Shown piece after piece: positions 34,716 through 42,647 of a stretch of 64,000 nucleotides of DNA; position 1 is the stretch's first letter, and each line of letters starts with the position of its first letter. The notes beneath the pieces were generated by a model. It did no database searches, was not told the origin of the DNA, and saw only the letters and a list, made by a program, of their open reading frames with translations. The position numbers and the translations under genes are program-made. This DNA is from Bacillus sp. ISL-45 (lineage in GTDB: Bacteria > Bacillota > Bacilli > Bacillales > Cytobacillaceae), in the NCBI RefSeq assembly GCF_018613195.1, contig NZ_JAGGQQ010000008.1, forward strand, positions 186,001 to 250,000, in the 5' to 3' direction.

Positions 34716-36848
34716 CTATGAAGCAACTTTCTCGTCAGAAAGCTCTTCCTTTCCAAGTGAATCTTCTTGTTGGTCGTCCTCTACTCTGTTTTCTGTCTTC
34801 TCTGATCCTTCCTGTGTTGATTCTCCATCTTCAATTATACCTTCTTGTACTTCTTCAACTGCAGGAGTTTCTTCTTGTGTACCAGCAGGTAATTCATCCT
34901 GTGCTGGCTGTTCTTCTGCATCTGCAGAAGGTGTTTGTTCTTCTGCTTTTAAATCCACAGAAGTTTGCTCTTGTACAGGGTCTTCCCCTATATCCACAGT
35001 AGGTGTTTCATCTTCTGGAATTGGTTCTTGTTGCCCGGAAGTTTCCTCTACATCTTCAGAAAGAGCTTCTGTTTCTCCTGGTTCTTCTTGTACGGGAGTC
35101 TCCTCTGCTTTATCGGTTTCTGTATTTTCCTGTAGATTGTAATTTGTTTTAAGTCTTGTGATTAATGCTGCAAACTGTGCGCGCGTTAACTTTTCCTGTG
35201 GACCGAAGATTCCTTGGCCATCCCCCAAGAAAATGCCGCGGTCTTTTACAAAAGCGATGGAATCGGCTGACCATGCAGCAGGACTGACATCCAAGAAAGG
35301 AGATTCGGTCACATCTGGTATTTCCTCACCAAATAACCTTCCTATCATCGCTGCCATTTGCTCCCTGGTCACAGGTGCATGTGGGCTGAATACTCCTTTG
35401 CTTGTCCCATTCATAATCCCCCTGGCATTTACAGCTTCGATAGATTCGTAAGCCCAATATGATTGTTGGACATCCGAAAAGGTTTTACCGGTAGAAGGAG
35501 GCGCTATCAGAGAGTAAACCCTTGAGATGACCGCAGCGGCTTCCGCCCTTGTAACCGAGTTATTAGGGAAGAAATAAGACCCATTGCCTACCATGTACTT
35601 ATTTTCATACGTATAGTCGATCGACTCGCGTGCCCAATAAGAAACAGGCACATCCCAAAAGTTCTGACCATATAACATACCCTCATTATTTGAAACATAT
35701 ATCCAGCGATCCCCGAGTGAAGTCCCGATCTGATACCAATTTCCTTGTTTCCTCTTGGCACTCACAATCTCTGAAGCTATCTTATTCGACGTAATCGAGT
35801 CGAAAGATGGTGTTGTATAGAGAGTGTAAGATTTGTCGAATTTCATTTTAGCGCTTAGATATACAGATTCCGCTGGAAAAATTTCTCCTGCTTTCGCTGC
35901 CATCCATAAGCCAGTTGTTTTATTTTTGTCCCAGATTTTCGGAAAGTTGCTTTGAGGCACATGCCGATTCCCGACATAAGGGCTTAATTCCGGTGTGAAT
36001 CCTGGTTTATTGAACTCTTGAATAAACCAATCTGTATAGCCTCTGCCGCTTGGCTTTACATCCGTGCCAATAATCCGGTATCCGGTAATATTGCTCAGCT
36101 CTTTTACAAGCTTATAATCTCTTGTTTTTTGCTTATTGTAAAAATACCAAAAAATCATTTCGCCTGATGTATGGTAGGCAGTTGTAATATCAGGTTTAAT
36201 TTTATAGGTAAAATCTCTTATGTACTGCACTTCTTTTTCTTGGAAAGGTTTTTGTCCCTTATAACCTGCCCAAGAGGGTTTACTGGCTTCACTTGGACTT
36301 TCCCATTTCGCGGGGTATTGTCTGTTCAGATCAACACCATTGGCATTTGCTTTCCAGCGGGTAAAATCTCTGCTTCCTTTATTCATTGCTATTAGCTTTG
36401 AATGAACCGTTGTTGGGAATGCAGATAAGCCCCGCTGCTGCAGCGTCACACCATCTGGATTAACCATAGGAACAAACCAGATTGTATATTCATCTAAAAT
36501 ATCACGAGCATTGTATTTACCGACAAGCAAGTTCTTTTGATACGCATTAGCATATTCCTCAATCATCTTCATAATCAATTGAGTAGTGATCCATTCCCTG
36601 GCATGGTGAGAACCATTCAGGAAAACCGTTCGCTTTCCTTTTCCTAACTTCACTGCCCAGACCTCTCTCTGATAAGAAGTTTTCCCAAGCGAATGATAAT
36701 CTACCAAATCAGGATATGTACCTTTCAATCTCTTAATCTCATTAGAAACATCCTCATAGGAATACGTACCATCATCCCAGACAGCAGCCTCGGTACTTAA
36801 CGGTTGAAAAATGGAAAACAATAAAAATAAAGACAAAAAAATACGCAT
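34716..36848 (-). CDS. M14 zinc carboxypeptidase with three SLH domains and an acidic tail
   Basis: A 710-residue exported protein. A signal peptide covers residues 1-21 (LFLLFSIFQPLSTEA). The M14 domain (about 25-320) has the zinc motif H82-x-x-E85 in NGSHHAREW, a second His in TAYHTSGEM and the catalytic Glu in FTPELSPY. An SH3-like segment follows (about 330-390), then three SLH repeats (about 395-575; SVTRAEAAAVISR, PVTREQMAAMIGR, KLTRAQFAALITR) for binding cell-wall polymers, and a very acidic Glu/Pro/Thr tail of about 130 residues. It would trim peptides or peptidoglycan stem peptides at the cell surface. The ATG follows AAAGGGG. Confidence 0.9.
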   Translation of the reverse strand: MRIFLSLFLLFSIFQPLSTEAAVWDDGTYSYEDVSNEIKRLKGTYPDLVDYHSLGKTSYQREVWAVKLGKGKRTVFLNGSHHAREWITTQLIMKMIEEYANAYQKNLLVGKYNARDILDEYTIWFVPMVNPDGVTLQQRGLSAFPTTVHSKLIAMNKGSRDFTRWKANANGVDLNRQYPAKWESPSEASKPSWAGYKGQKPFQEKEVQYIRDFTYKIKPDITTAYHTSGEMIFWYFYNKQKTRDYKLVKELSNITGYRIIGTDVKPSGRGYTDWFIQEFNKPGFTPELSPYVGNRHVPQSNFPKIWDKNKTTGLWMAAKAGEIFPAESVYLSAKMKFDKSYTLYTTPSFDSITSNKIASEIVSAKRKQGNWYQIGTSLGDRWIYVSNNEGMLYGQNFWDVPVSYWARESIDYTYENKYMVGNGSYFFPNNSVTRAEAAAVISRVYSLIAPPSTGKTFSDVQQSYWAYESIEAVNARGIMNGTSKGVFSPHAPVTREQMAAMIGRLFGEEIPDVTESPFLDVSPAAWSADSIAFVKDRGIFLGDGQGIFGPQEKLTRAQFAALITRLKTNYNLQENTETDKAEETPVQEEPGETEALSEDVEETSGQQEPIPEDETPTVDIGEDPVQEQTSVDLKAEEQTPSADAEEQPAQDELPAGTQEETPAVEEVQEGIIEDGESTQEGSEKTENRVEDDQQEDSLGKEELSDEKVAS

Positions 36849-37691: not shown

Positions 37692-37925
37692 TTAAATCAC
37701 CCCAATTGCATTTTACTTTAGTAGAATCATATCAAAAAAATGGTTATTAAGGGGTGAATTAGTGCAAGGAAAAGGCCCTCCAACTCTCATTTTGGTGTCC
37801 GGGGAGTGAGAAGGCGGGAGAAGAATGGTTCCTCTGTTTTATCCCATTAATATCCACTATCTGTATTATTATTATAATTATATAATTCTTCTGTACTATA
37901 TATGAATTGTAGGAGGAAGAATTAC

Positions 37926-39137
37926 TTGAAGCGCGTTTTATCTATTCTTTTGGCTTTCACATTAACATTGGGACTGCTTCCGTTTGCTGCTTTTGCTGCA
38001 GTTGACCCACAGGATCAGGAGTTCCAACATTATCTCCAGGAAATCGGTATGACTGAGGAGGAGTTCATTGCCTATATGAAAGACTGGCATGATTACTCTT
38101 TGGAAGAGTTTGAAACACTGGAAGAGTTGACAGACTACCTGGGAGCTGAGCTCGATGAAGAAAATCTCCAGGAATTGCTTGCTGATTTTGACATGACAGA
38201 GGAAGAATTCAACCTGTTGCTTGAGGAAAATGGAGCAACATTGGAAGAATTCGTTTTTTACGATGATCTATATTTCAGTGTCTCAGAATGGCTTTACACT
38301 GAAGAATTGACTCCTATTACTGACGAAAGCCTGCAAACGCTTCTTGAAGATTATGAATTTGCATCGATTGAAGAGTTGGAAGCTTTCTTGAATTCTTATG
38401 ATGATTCAATCGAAAACTATGAATATATCGAAGACCTTGAATTTGCGGTAGCTGAACACTACTTCATGGAATCTAAGGATGATTTGATCAACACTTTGGA
38501 TTCTTTTGGTCTATCGCTTGCCGAAGCCAATAAACTTGCCAATCATGTGATTGCGATTATGGAAAATCCTGACCTCGATCCTGAACAATTTTTCACAGCG
38601 CTCGAGGAATACGGTGCAAGATTAATGGATTTCCCTGAGTTTGATAGTGCAGCTGATCTTTCAGCTGAAGACATTGCCGAATTCATTGACATTTGGGATG
38701 GCTTGCTTACTTTGTTGGATCTGAAAGTAGAATACTACTTGGTTAAGGATGGCGTCGAGTCTCCTGTTTTATTTGCTTCCCTTATGCAAATGGTTTCTAC
38801 CAATGGAGCGGATTTAATGGTAAAAATCCTTTCAGCCAATGGTGACCTATTGGCTGACATGGTCATCACGAAGGAAATGTTCGACTCTGAATTCATGCAA
38901 GAAACCGGAGAAAACCTGGAAGATACAACTGAGGCAGCTGAAGAAGTGAAAAATGCTGCAGAAGAAATGGAAAAAGCTGAAGAGAAATCCCCTGCAGCCA
39001 AAGCACCTGTTAAAACTGTCAAAGGCGGCAAACTTCCAAACACCGCTTCAGATTACCTGCAAAATACAATGGCTGGATTAGCTATGATTCTTTTGGGAGC
39101 TATTGTATTCAGGAAAGTGAAAGTTAAACGTGTTTAA
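37926..39137 (+). CDS. processed acidic surface protein with LPXTG-like sorting signal
   Basis: About 403 residues. A signal peptide is followed by AVDPQD; the mature part is extremely acidic and made of recurring helices containing T-E-E-E-F or similar. The C terminus has the sorting motif LPNTA (about 370-374), a hydrophobic helix and a basic tail (FRKVKVKRV). This matches the family of acidic surface proteins that pair with a dedicated sortase (TIGR04383 in my recollection). Start: TTG 37926 behind AGGAGG (37911-37916); the frame extends to 37902 without a ribosome site. It overlaps the sortase gene by 8 bp. Confidence 0.85.
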   Translation: MKRVLSILLAFTLTLGLLPFAAFAAVDPQDQEFQHYLQEIGMTEEEFIAYMKDWHDYSLEEFETLEELTDYLGAELDEENLQELLADFDMTEEEFNLLLEENGATLEEFVFYDDLYFSVSEWLYTEELTPITDESLQTLLEDYEFASIEELEAFLNSYDDSIENYEYIEDLEFAVAEHYFMESKDDLINTLDSFGLSLAEANKLANHVIAIMENPDLDPEQFFTALEEYGARLMDFPEFDSAADLSAEDIAEFIDIWDGLLTLLDLKVEYYLVKDGVESPVLFASLMQMVSTNGADLMVKILSANGDLLADMVITKEMFDSEFMQETGENLEDTTEAAEEVKNAAEEMEKAEEKSPAAKAPVKTVKGGKLPNTASDYLQNTMAGLAMILLGAIVFRKVKVKRV

Positions 39138-39768
39138 ATATATGAAAGAGAGAAGAACCGGAAAGCTGGTTCTTCTTTCCTTATCCGTTGTCATAATCGC
39201 ACTCGGTTTCTGGTTCAGCGGAACAAACGCTTATAAATTCATGAAGGGCTATTGGCTTTTTAAAACTGGTGAACCCCAAACAGAGGTCGTCCTTGCCGAT
39301 AACCCTGATCAAACGGCAGATAGAGAAATGCAAGAGAGTCCTGCCAGCCTCTATTCCGAGAGGCCTGAAAAAGGAGAAATGATCGGTAACCTGGCCATTC
39401 CTAAACTCAACGCCACTTTGCCCATCTATCATGGAACTGATGAAGATGAGCTTGAAAAAGGGGTAGGGCATTTCGCCGGCAGCGTGCTTCCAGGTGAAAA
39501 GGATAATTCTGTTTTATCCGGCCACCGTGATACTGTTTTTCGCCAGCTTGGCAATGTTGGCAAAGGAGACTTGCTCGTCGTCTCGACAGAAGCAGGAGAA
39601 TTCACCTACAAGGTCAGGAAAGTCCGCATTGTGGATGCAGACGACAGAACAGTAATTGTTCCAAAACCTCGCGCCACACTGACCGTCACAACCTGTTATC
39701 CTTTTGATTTTATTGGCGATGCCCCAGAGCGATATATCCTTGTTGCAGATTTGATTGAAGAGAAATGA
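39130..39768 (+). CDS. srtD: class D sortase
   Basis: A 212-residue membrane-anchored transpeptidase. One N-terminal helix (residues 13-30) is followed by the sortase barrel with catalytic H132 (SGHRDT), C189 (TTCYPF) and R201 (ERYILV). It cleaves the LPNTA motif of the surface protein encoded just upstream and links it to the wall. Start GTG 39130 overlaps that gene; ATG 39142 is an alternative. Class assignment comes from the TTCYPF motif and gene pairing. Confidence 0.88.
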   Translation: MFKYMKERRTGKLVLLSLSVVIIALGFWFSGTNAYKFMKGYWLFKTGEPQTEVVLADNPDQTADREMQESPASLYSERPEKGEMIGNLAIPKLNATLPIYHGTDEDELEKGVGHFAGSVLPGEKDNSVLSGHRDTVFRQLGNVGKGDLLVVSTEAGEFTYKVRKVRIVDADDRTVIVPKPRATLTVTTCYPFDFIGDAPERYILVADLIEEK

Positions 39769-39772
39769 AAGG

Positions 39773-39809
39773 CCTGAGCACACACCTAAAATTGGTGCTC
39801 AGGTTTTTT
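39773..39809 (+). terminator. terminator of the surface protein-sortase operon
   Basis: CCTGAGCAC (39773-39781) pairs with GTGCTCAGG (39795-39803), followed by six T residues. Confidence 0.85.
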
Positions 39810-39930
39810 CTTTGTATAATACGATCAGGAACTATTGGTACGGGTCAGCTCGAGACAAGCAAGCGTGGAGTTTTAAAGCCTTCAGAAAGATTGTCCACCT
39901 TGATGGAACCTTATCCGAAATTGTGAAGAC

Positions 39931-40648
39931 TTCGGACAAGTCTAGAGAGAAAAGAAGGGAAAGTGTCTGAACTTGGGGCGACTTCGGACAAGAATAGTGG
40001 AAACCAACGAAAAGTTGTCTGAACCCGAGGCGACTTCGGACAAGAATAGTGGAAACCAACGAAAAGTTGTCCGAACTTGAGACGACTTCGGACAAGATAG
40101 GAGGAAACCAACGAAAAGTTGTCTGAACCTGGGGCGACTTCGGACAAGAATAGTGGAAACCAACGAAAAGTTGTCTGAACCTGGAGAGGCTTCGGACAAG
40201 AATGGGGGCAACAAACGAAAAGTTGTCCGAACTTGAATCAACTTCGGACAAGAATGGAGGAAACCAATGAAAAGTTGTCCGAACCTGGTGCGACTTCGGA
40301 CAAGAATGGAGGCAACCAACGAAAAGTTGTCTGAACCTGAGGCGACTTCGGACAAGAATAGTGGCAACCAATGAAAAGTTGTCCGAACCTGGTGCGACTT
40401 CGGACAAGAATGGTGGAAACCAACGAAAAGTTGTCTGAACCTGGTGCGACTTCGGACAAGAATGGAGGCAACCAATGAAAAGTTGTCTGAACCCGAGGCG
40501 ACTTCGGACAAGAATAGTGGCAACCAACGAAAAGTTGTCTGAACCTGGAGCGACTTCGGACAAGAATGGAGGCAACCAACGAAAAGTTGTCTGAACCTGA
40601 GGCGACTTCGGACAAGAATAGTGTAAACCAACGAAAAGTTGTCTGAAG
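39931..40648. repeat. tandem array of 14 x 52-bp hairpin units
   Basis: The motif TTCGGACAAG starts at 39931, 39983, 40035, 40087, 40139, 40191, 40243, 40295, 40347, 40399, 40451, 40503, 40555 and 40607: always exactly 52 bp apart. In each unit the left arm TTCGGACAA is followed after about 23 bases by TTGTCYGAA, so every unit can fold into a 9-bp stem whose Y is either C or T (G-C or G-U pair). The loop is nearly constant (GTGGAAACCAACGAAAAG or close), and an 11-bp spacer (often CCTGGGGCGAC) separates units. The first unit is diverged, and weaker traces extend back to about 39880. It fills the gap between two converging genes. Confidence 0.9.
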
Positions 40649-40680
40649 CTTGACAGTTCTTATGCGGCAGGACACCAAAA

Positions 40681-40712
40681 AAGTGAGCAGGAGAACCCCT
40701 GCTCACTTTTTC
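40681..40712. terminator. bidirectional terminator at the edge of the repeat array
   Basis: AAGTGAGCAGG (40681-40691) pairs with CCTGCTCACTT (40698-40708). Runs of A and T lie on both sides. It overlaps the end of the DUF3006 gene. Confidence 0.85.
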
Positions 40713-40954
40713 TTAAGTTTGTTTAAAAGGTCTTCAACCTTCTTCCTTGCAGCTTCAGTCTCTTCTTCTAATAATTTTACATGCTGTACACTGCCATCCT
40801 CATTAAATTTAACAAATAAGAGGTCACCTTCAGCAGCGTTTGAGGGTAATGATTCTTTACTGAGTAAAACCTCTTTAGTCTCATCATCTCTAAACAACAG
40901 TACAGCCATATCTTTTTCAAATCGATCGAGTGTGTACTTACCTGGCAAGTTCAT
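40703..40954 (-). CDS. DUF3006 domain protein
   Basis: An 83-residue small protein with the DUF3006 pattern: YTLDRFEKDMAVLLFRDDET, GDLLFVKFNEDG, and a C-terminal charged helix (EEETEAARKKVEDLLNKLKK). DUF3006 genes often sit next to secreted ComEC-like metallo-beta-lactamase genes, exactly as here. The ATG at 40954 lies inside the end of that gene, with AGGGG upstream, so the two are translationally coupled. It has no signal peptide; role unknown, possibly a small beta-barrel accessory. Confidence 0.85.
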   Translation of the reverse strand: MNLPGKYTLDRFEKDMAVLLFRDDETKEVLLSKESLPSNAAEGDLLFVKFNEDGSVQHVKLLEEETEAARKKVEDLLNKLKKK

Positions 40955-42647
40955 CAATTATCGTCCCCTGTGGGTCTACGAGCCTTGCGGCGTCCCCGTT
41001 ATTATCCCAGGTATAAGCTGTAGTCCAAAGAAGATGAGTCGGCCTGCTTTCATAAGCGCTTCTTCCAGTTGTCACAGTAACCGAAGCACCTTTCTTCAAG
41101 ACAAAATCACTTGGGAATTCGTATTGCTGATTTCCATCAACACTTATTAATGTCCAGCCATCCATCGGAACATCACTTGTATCGATATTTTTCAATGTAA
41201 CGATTTCTTGGCTTAAGTCTAGATTGGTGATATCGATTTTACCAGTATTGGGAGTTGGCTGAGGTTCAGTTCCTGGAACACCTTTAATCAGCTGTATGGA
41301 AGAACCGTTTGATTCAAAGGCGATATCTCCATTGGTTGTTGGTACAACTGTTGCGCCCATAGCTGTTAGTCGGTTCACCACAACGCTATCTGGGTGTCCG
41401 TAACTATTCCCTTCGCCAAAAGACAATACTGCCCATGTTGGAGTAACTTCGTTTAAGAACAGTTGGGAAGATCCTGTCTCTGATCCATGATGCGAAACTT
41501 TAAGTACATCAGCATTCACATCAAAGCTGGAAACCATGTCAGCTTCCGCTTGGATCCCTGCATCCCCAGTAAATAGGTAAGATTTTGAACCGTGAGTTAC
41601 TTTCAATACAACGGATGCCTCATTATTATCTGAAGAACCATCGCCACTATTCAATACTTGAACTTTGATTGCAGGGTCTACATCAATGAATTCACCTGTT
41701 TGGGCAACATGGAAAGGGATGTTCTTCTGATCAATCAACGTTAAGTAATCCATGTATGTTTGCGAAGTATGTGATTTTCCGCTATCGATTACATTTTTAA
41801 CAGGAATTTGATTTAACACCGGGATTAACCCGCCAATATGATCGGCATCCGGATGAGTTGCTACCAGATAGTCAATCGAAGTTACGCCAGCTGCTTTAAG
41901 GTAAGAAACAACCTTTTCACCAGCAGTTTGCTTACCGCCATCAATTAGAATTGTTTTACCGTTTGGAGTAATTAATAGACTGCTGTCTCCTTGATCAACA
42001 TCCAGGAAGTGAACAGCTAATTTACCGCTTGAGGCAGGTGGCTCGACTTTAAAACTATCATTTAAAGCTCTAGCTAAGAAAGCAGAAAAGTCTCCGCGAG
42101 ACAGCTGTTTATTGGGTCTGAAGGTATTGTCTGCATATCCTGTCGTGATGCCAAAGGCGAGAATCTTTTTAATCGACGAGTATGCAGTAATACTAGGACT
42201 TACATCTGAAAAATAAACATTTGCTTCATTACTTAACTTAAATGCTCTGGCCAGGAAAATAGCCATTTGCCCGCGTGTAACCGGCTCCTTTGGCCTATAT
42301 GTGCCATCAGCATATCCGCTGATAATTCCCTGCTTAACCGCCGAATCTATAAATCCGGATGCATAATTGCTTGCACCCACATCAGAAAAGGTCGTGTTTC
42401 TTTGTGTGCCATCTAACTTTAACGCTCTGCCAATCATTGCGGCAGCAGCATCTCTAGTTACAACAGCATTTGGCTTAAATTCTCCATTACCATAGCCACT
42501 AATAATCCCGCGATCATACAGATACATGACCTCGTCATAGAAATTGTAGCTTGAATGTACATCTGTAAATTCTGTACTCGCATTTGCGTTAGGGGTAAAG
42601 ACGCTGAACAAAAACACAGAACAAATTAACAATAATAGTTTTTTCAC
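40938..42647 (-). CDS. SLH-metallo-beta-lactamase-lamin tail surface protein
   Basis: A 569-residue exported protein. Signal peptide at residues 1-23; three SLH repeats at about 27-200 (VVTRDAAAAMIGRAL, PVTRGQMAIFLARAF, QLSRGDFSAFLARAL); an MBL-fold domain at about 208-450 with the metal motif THPDADHIGG and HHGSETG, of the ComEC/Rec2 C-terminal type; then a lamin-tail domain at about 465-569. ComEC-like MBL domains act as nucleases. A wall-attached enzyme that digests extracellular DNA is a fair inference. Start GTG 42647 follows AGGAGTGGAG. Confidence 0.9.
   Translation of the reverse strand: MKKLLLLICSVFLFSVFTPNANASTEFTDVHSSYNFYDEVMYLYDRGIISGYGNGEFKPNAVVTRDAAAAMIGRALKLDGTQRNTTFSDVGASNYASGFIDSAVKQGIISGYADGTYRPKEPVTRGQMAIFLARAFKLSNEANVYFSDVSPSITAYSSIKKILAFGITTGYADNTFRPNKQLSRGDFSAFLARALNDSFKVEPPASSGKLAVHFLDVDQGDSSLLITPNGKTILIDGGKQTAGEKVVSYLKAAGVTSIDYLVATHPDADHIGGLIPVLNQIPVKNVIDSGKSHTSQTYMDYLTLIDQKNIPFHVAQTGEFIDVDPAIKVQVLNSGDGSSDNNEASVVLKVTHGSKSYLFTGDAGIQAEADMVSSFDVNADVLKVSHHGSETGSSQLFLNEVTPTWAVLSFGEGNSYGHPDSVVVNRLTAMGATVVPTTNGDIAFESNGSSIQLIKGVPGTEPQPTPNTGKIDITNLDLSQEIVTLKNIDTSDVPMDGWTLISVDGNQQYEFPSDFVLKKGASVTVTTGRSAYESRPTHLLWTTAYTWDNNGDAARLVDPQGTIIDELAR

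Follow-up and report, generated by a model that had tools for sequence, protein, structure and literature searches.

Fixed half-sites and helically phased A+T content in a 52-bp repeat array of Bacillus: a candidate DNA-level lattice

Introduction

A convergent gap between two genes of Bacillus sp. ISL-45 holds fourteen repeats of 52 bp that keep their spacing exactly, although their bases vary between copies. The question is why a repeat should hold its length more strictly than its sequence, and whether such an array acts as DNA or as RNA. Satellites of constant 52-nt length are a published class in Bacillus and other Firmicutes, said to be without sequence conservation, for which a small RNA or a polymerising nucleoid protein has been proposed (Subirana and Messeguer 2021, PMC8161180). 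I analyzed the array in its window (the whole stretch of 64,000 nucleotides in which it lies), in its own genome and in related genomes.

Results

The array and its locus

The features around the array are as follows.

39130..39768, + strand: sortase gene (PF04203), the left neighbour (gene call, Pfam)
39767..39809, + strand: intrinsic terminator of the sortase gene, before the array (-22.7 kcal/mol, z -5.2, with a T run)
39912..39918, + strand: degenerate half-site TATCCGA, in register, at the upstream edge of the array (half-site scan)
39931..40647, no strand assigned: array of 14 units of 52 bp (motif starts, repeat finding, half-site scan)
40678..40711, no strand assigned: terminator hairpin of the convergent DUF3006 gene, after the array (folds on both strands)
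40703..40957, - strand: DUF3006 gene (PF11213), the right neighbour (gene call, Pfam)
40938..42647, - strand: gene for a protein with SLH, metallo-beta-lactamase fold and lamin-tail domains, used as anchor for the orthologous locus (Pfam, orthologue search)

The motif TTCGGACAA starts 14 times between 39931 and 40607, at steps of 52 bp and with no indel, and Tandem Repeats Finder delimits the same region (39928-40647, period 52, 13.8 copies, 87% matches, 0% indels). The window holds 18 matches to this motif on both strands, against 0.59 expected. With the sortase gene on the + strand and the DUF3006 gene on the - strand, the original prediction of 14 phased 52-bp repeats in a convergent gap is borne out. 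Each unit consists of a half-site TTCRGACA (TTCGGACA in every unit of the window), a 25-bp linker, the inverted half-site TGTCYGAA and a 13-bp spacer, where linker and spacer are measured between the 7-bp cores TCGGACA and TGTCYGA. The right arm reads TTGTCYGAA in 13 of the 14 units, unit 1 having GTGTCTGAA, and the Y position is T in ten units and C in four. Allowing one mismatch at most, TGTC-N19-GACA-N25-TGTC matches 27 times in the window, always within the array (0.13 expected).

A CRISPR is ruled out, as had been predicted, since the two variable segments are repeated along the array, with 87% matches, and thus leave no unique spacers; an insertion sequence, discounted from the start, was also rejected. 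So was an Rfam RNA family: the sole match with E<=1 in 39000-41500 falls on a terminator hairpin and scores below the gathering score. The terminator of the sortase gene was missed by a simple hairpin scan, which has a loop limit of 8.

The neighbourhood has features of its own. The product of the gene before the sortase (the pair spans 37902-39768) has an LPNTA motif, a hydrophobic tail and no Pfam match; I take the motif to be of the sortase-substrate type, so that the pair looks like a sortase and its substrate. Proteins joining SLH domains to enzyme domains are encoded at 40938-42647 (metallo-beta-lactamase fold and lamin tail) and at 34716-36848 (zinc carboxypeptidase), and the contig of the window has many SLH matches.

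A close orthologue of the SLH gene is missing in 17 of 21 genomes. No array was seen at the locus in the three other genus members that have one: in G019 another gene takes the place of the array, in G011 none lies within the about 1.2 kb examined, a stretch that stops short of the sortase, and in G017 the contig ends soon after the SLH orthologue. The array at this locus is therefore lineage-specific.

Copies in the genome and in relatives

A similarity search of the array's own genome gave 45 matches at 26 separate places, so that at least 26 such places exist, and the three best matches lie behind 5S genes. When the gap of the pair pattern was left free between 14 and 40 nt, the two strands of this genome yielded 152 and 139 matches and the reversed control 1 and 2; the gap is 25 nt in nearly all of the matches listed. 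Outside its own genome, DNA similarity picks up the window array in 18 of 40 relatives, all of the same genus. The pattern TCGGACA-25-TGTCYGA-13-TCGGACA occurs in 79 of 193 genomes of the family (reversed control, 0), and the arm and spacing pattern of the window in 25 of 397 genomes of the order, with at least 109 stretches in named genomes. Among the matches listed, the named genera include Mesobacillus, Neobacillus, Cytobacillus, Evansella and Trichococcus, and the array consensuses of named Mesobacillus are alike. Single operators were considered and rejected, as 12 stretches chosen in other genomes at few or isolated pattern matches proved to be arrays with at least 3-4 arms in register. 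No match was found in viral contigs searched with the TCGGACA pattern, nor in phages and plasmids searched by BLAST with the window array.

Some records call for comment. Arrays with Trichococcus-like spacers (L042, L047, L073, L077, L082) come from records titled Sedimentibacter sp. SX930, a title that may be mistaken, so that they do not establish the repeats for Clostridia. Six more (L061, L083, L102, L108, L111, L117) are in records titled Chryseobacterium sp. ISL-80, a name that looks wrong. One array from a MAG (L057, about 862-1554) has mainly a 53-bp lattice: the distance from one arm start to the next is 33 rather than 32 bp in 10 of 13 cases. Contigs C6, C7, C8 and C16 of G000 end at 5S genes followed by 52-bp arrays; draft assemblies may thus break there and undercount arrays.

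A register common to different arm types

Table 1 of PMC8161180 lists 27 consensus repeats, from which I took the 18 labelled 52 nt, with the best three arm pairs of each. Besides two with the window's own arm type, six of the 18 have other inverted arms at the same 20-bp offset, and a generic pattern was therefore drawn up. TGTC-N19-GACA-N25-TGTC-N19-GACA is present in 69 of 397 genomes of the order and 30 of 135 genera, against a single genome, once per strand, for the backward control. A phylum sample gave 1 of 259 genomes, the window's own, in a set that hardly samples the window's class, since 250 of its genomes belong to other classes and six to other orders of that class.

The arm sequences under this register differ (TGTCCTTCAT, TGTCCAGTAG, TGTCTTTTTG and others), and the array's own genome has several arm types among the places listed, some of them asymmetric. 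At L318 and L319 (G000:C1), for example, modules such as TGTCAAAAGA...TTCAGACA keep the register with half-sites of two types. From 22 arrays with other arms, 19 were compared, a single one for each locus: the inner arm positions 5-9 pair in 13-19 of these, where shuffling gives means of 6-11. The 120 consensuses compiled for the window's arm type (889 units; L001 and L007 left out, and at least one duplicate kept, L011 and L085 sharing a consensus) have nearly invariant bases at most arm positions, and linkers and spacers that vary between arrays. The T/A base flanking the arms pairs across them in 97% of these consensuses, against 67% expected. At spacer positions p4 and q1 the two bases belong to one class, G/C or A/T, in 117 of the 120 arrays, often without being complementary, as if class alone counted.

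The window array belongs to the known 52-nt class. It has in common with the published satellites the period of 52, variable sequence, noncoding location, tens of arrays per genome and words that recur in reverse inside the repeat, and the species overlap (selenatarsenatis, boroniphilus, subterraneus, oceanisediminis; PMC8161180). The arrays studied here likewise hold a unit of 51-53 nt despite sequence variation between arrays, combine short characteristic words with their reverse in one repeat, and form several sequence families per genome. In contrast, the published absence of conservation does not hold, given the TGTC-N19-GACA register in 69/397 genomes, which corrects the description and leaves membership in the class as it stands. 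What is added is this register, the A+T phasing, the placement by terminators and rRNA genes, and the maintenance at orthologous loci. Among the papers listed in literature searches, none was seen to give the common register, the helical phasing or the rRNA placement, although parts may stand in the same authors' 2020 J Bacteriol paper or in supplements.

A+T content is phased at the helical pitch

The A+T power of the free columns peaks at 10-10.4 bp, a level that none of 5000 column permutations attained (one of 5000 when the linker is taken by itself). For the fifth harmonic, at 10.4 bp, 116 non-redundant arrays give a phase coherence of R=0.86, against 0.10-0.42 for 12 other harmonics and at most 0.21 for permuted columns at the 10.4-bp period. 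Power is less specific than phase (z 3.5 at 7.4 bp against 3.8 at 10.4 bp). A+T content is higher at the linker centre than at its flanks in 95 of the 116 arrays, and higher at the spacer edges than at the spacer centre in 106.

A second set, of 22 arrays with other arms, has R=0.92 at 10.4 bp for the linker and 0.95 for linker and inner spacer together. Its phase, about pi from the module dyad, is by arithmetic that of the first set once both are referred to the same dyad. At 13 bp the linker alone also gives R=0.80 in this set, because 25 columns resolve periods poorly, and the value drops to 0.45 with the inner spacer. The 16 arrays of Trichococcus/Sedimentibacter have a common phase (R=0.74) with no excess of 10.4-bp power (z -1.1) and a weak A+T contrast (linker centre in 8/16, spacer in 11/16).

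Arrays follow terminators and some rRNA operons

Of 150 classified arrays, 39 lie in convergent, 96 in tandem and 15 in divergent gaps, as raw counts without a genome-wide baseline. The orientation set held 183 arrays, those at edges (32) and one inside an ORF being left unclassified; gene calls around arrays were mechanical and rRNA genes unmasked, so that some tandem and divergent labels beside rRNA are artefacts. Eleven loci were left out as repeats (L001, L006, L007, L009, L011-L014, L017, L018 and L020, L013 being presumed), L003 and L004 for degenerate arms, and 12 of 80 stretches without a chain of at least five arms, three of them exact, went uncounted (L139, L143, L146, L148, L149, L157, L158, L171, L196, L197, L206, L210). 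The orientation set and the later counts therefore favour arrays with intact arms.

On the stop-codon side, 111 of 158 gaps have a terminator ahead of the array; on the start-codon side, 4 of 94 do. These counts come from a permissive finder, which reports 1.7 terminators per kb and strand even within arrays. In the 31 convergent arrays scanned on both sides, a terminator is found on both in 8, on one in 20 and on none in 3. The excess is weaker in the second set (12 of 26 stop-side against 2 of 14 start-side gaps).

Searches for 5S rRNA genes gave 46 matches, and 39 loci from seven genomes were fetched. Behind 16 of these 39 lies an array, one of them weak (L235), with its nearest edge about 76-128 bp downstream; the reversed sequences of the same 39 loci held none. 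Arrays thus follow some rRNA operons in five of the seven genomes. No clear array was seen behind the 5S genes of G010 (0 of 4) and G015 (0 of 6 fetched of 10, one being marginal).

Arms are kept and bodies diverge at shared loci

Arrays are present in at least two genomes at 23 loci (73 arrays, 96 orthologous pairs). In the 39 pairs whose flanks have diverged by 10-15%, the bodies differ by 28% and the arms by 5%. The body difference is at most 30% in 50 of the 96 pairs. Among these 50, changes are seen in no more than 2% of pairs at 12 of the 14 arm positions, in 32-34% at sites 8 and 42, and in 16-42% at mid-body columns 18-33. Since an arm chain tolerates no more than a single mismatch in each 7-bp arm, larger arm divergence would escape this count; the variable sites 8 and 42 serve as an internal control. 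Substitutions keep the A/T-or-G/C class in 118 of 347 cases in bodies, against 8990 of 38721 in flanks (p=5e-6, the pairs being non-independent). More generally, p-values that treat arrays as independent are optimistic because arrays are related by descent. Copy number differs even at near-identical loci (23 against 19 arms, with flanks 99.7-99.9% identical).

The original prediction would have given way to a neutral slippage expansion if sister strains lacked the array and no other copies existed. Here the outcome is mixed, as no array was seen at the window locus in three genus members that have the orthologous gene, but the array's own genome has many others. One-off slippage is excluded, because of these other arrays in the genome and the 23 loci common to several genomes.

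Discussion

DNA or RNA

The original prediction also read selection at the RNA level from the Y position, where pairing seemed to be kept as G-C or G-U, and this part is not supported. Both sides of site 8/42 are variable (G or A; C or T), and in 1570 arm pairs there are 942 G-C, 220 G-T, 204 A-C and 89 A-T combinations, so that G.T and A.C are equally common. The two sides are loosely linked (odds ratio 1.9), which copying within arrays alone could produce. The strand with G.U agrees with the direction defined by genes in 21 of 33 arrays (one-sided p=0.08, seven mixed arrays left out), and C-to-T mutation on the coding strand could give this agreement too.

One of the proposals of Subirana and Messeguer is a structured RNA: transcripts of the units would work as small hairpin RNAs or as sponges for proteins. 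The arms do covary, positions 7 and 8 pairing in all 19 arrays that carry other arms (6.1 and 10.0 on average after shuffling), but a dimeric protein would lead one to expect the same symmetry. The window array folds well as an RNA strand, better than 20 of 20 shuffles (z -4.8), as is expected of any inverted-repeat array. In B. coagulans, 52-nt repeats are reported among RNA-seq reads (PMC8625621). Against a transcript speak the terminators that precede the array in most stop-side gaps, the equal frequency of G.T and A.C, and the linkers, where strong covariation within the 25 nt was sought in 120 arrays and not found. I also know of no RNA reason for a 10.4-bp phasing of the linker, and I regard a structured RNA as quite improbable.

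A DNA-level lattice and its rivals

The arrays are better read as DNA than as RNA because their spacing equals five helical turns, because linkers are constrained more tightly in A+T phase than in sequence, and because they lie mostly beyond terminators. The reading I favour, with a probability of roughly 60%, is a DNA-level lattice wrapped by a putative protein, with the likely role of holding, sinking or blocking torsion. Inverted half-sites (the outer TGTC...GACA, in the window TGTCYGAA...TTCRGACA) recur at 20 and 32 bp, close to two and to three helical turns, and at 10.4 bp per turn the sum of 52 bp makes five turns, which would set all half-sites along nearly the same face of the helix. 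The intervening DNA, largely free in sequence and phased in A+T, could bend in register, and a protein that reads half-sites and wraps DNA could then form a regular nucleoprotein array. Intergenic gaps, mostly past a terminator and in some cases behind rRNA operons, would be sites where transcription leaves positive supercoils, and there the array might serve as a topological insulator or as a platform for gyrase or a nucleoid protein. Computation shows the register, the phasing, the placement and the upkeep of arrays at orthologous loci; that a protein binds and wraps them, which protein this would be, and that torsion is what it acts on are inferred. Of the roles originally offered, a protein-binding array thus emerges as the best reading; like the dismissal of CRISPR and insertion sequence it stood, and RNA-level selection is not supported.

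The torsion role is suggested by analogy with the gyrase motif of E. coli. BIME-2 elements alternate in orientation, with fixed spacers. They and other REP sequences are, like these arrays, intergenic palindromic repeats, bound by gyrase in E. coli (PMC6379681), and a role in supercoiling has been hypothesised for them (PMC3733652). They differ in sequence and unit length, and the linkers of the 52-bp arrays are sequence-free but phased; the GTAG or CGTC tag at one end of the palindrome (PMC3733652) is lacking, as the array ends, by eye, in TGTC/GACA. The E. coli gyrase motif has G/C content periodic at the helical pitch (10.75 bp), read as wrapping on the GyrA C-terminal domains, and gyrase gathers downstream of rRNA operons (PMC6379681); the motif is, however, a degenerate one of 130 bp, unlike a tandem array with fixed half-sites.

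Helical-pitch G/C phasing, as a feature of gyrase sites, is found in the 52-bp arrays. Gyrase could be the putative wrapped protein, a special case of the lattice in which the arrays would be strong gyrase sites and the Bacillales counterpart of BIME-2. The 10.4-bp A+T phasing and the positions behind rRNA operons speak for this, alongside the known motif with its phased 10-bp G/C variation and its enrichment downstream of rRNA operons and in BIME-2. However, nothing in gyrase recognition corresponds, to my knowledge, to the fixed TGTC/GACA half-sites, and gyrase is universal, as far as I know, whereas the register is found in just 69 of 397 genomes of the order. The downstream attraction in E. 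coli is moreover reported not to be hard-wired in sequence (PMC6379681). Gyrase itself thus seems rather unlikely, and a dedicated nucleoid protein fits as well. Clustering of neighbour proteins did not find a cognate gene beside arrays: the largest cluster covers 13 loci and consists partly of reading frames from array edges, and the next two (10 and 9 loci) are largely made up of orthologous loci. Besides this negative result, the two genomes with no clear array behind 5S genes, the weak signal of Trichococcus/Sedimentibacter, the 53-bp MAG array, the permissive terminator finder, the power at 7.4 bp and the RNA-seq reads of B. coagulans weigh against the lattice.

A selfish or neutral satellite, spread by unequal crossing over or by a REP/REPIN-like mobiliser and persisting without function, would explain the copy-number difference at near-identical loci, the patchy distribution and the genomes that have the window locus without the array. 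It accounts poorly for arms that stay fixed at 23 shared loci where bodies diverge more than flanks, for a phasing common to arrays with different bodies, and for the absence of matches in viral contigs, phages and plasmids by the searches above; I consider it improbable. Still less credence goes to a roadblock, by which many bound proteins would halt read-through RNA polymerase or replication forks behind busy units with no part in supercoiling. Arrays behind rRNA operons and the larger number in convergent than in divergent gaps (39 against 15) agree with it, but most arrays are already preceded by a terminator, and the linker phasing is left unexplained.

Returning to the lattice, a bolder form of it, which I put forward tentatively and hold below even odds, is a bacterial chromatin array encoded in sequence: fixed half-sites and phased linkers would order a putative wrapped filament and form a built-in torsional insulator of Bacillales. 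Such arrays would stand at the ends of transcription units, above all of rRNA operons, and lineages would keep the TGTC/GACA frame and change the inner arms, a part of the proposal that is equally tentative.

The 52-nt class was published as an enigma. The register and the 10.4-bp phasing offer an answer as to why the unit is 52 nt (five turns) and why it appeared unconserved (a hidden TGTC/GACA frame), and they make the question of its role testable. If a protein is found, the arrays would be an example from bacteria of phased sequence that orders the wrapping of DNA where transcription units end.
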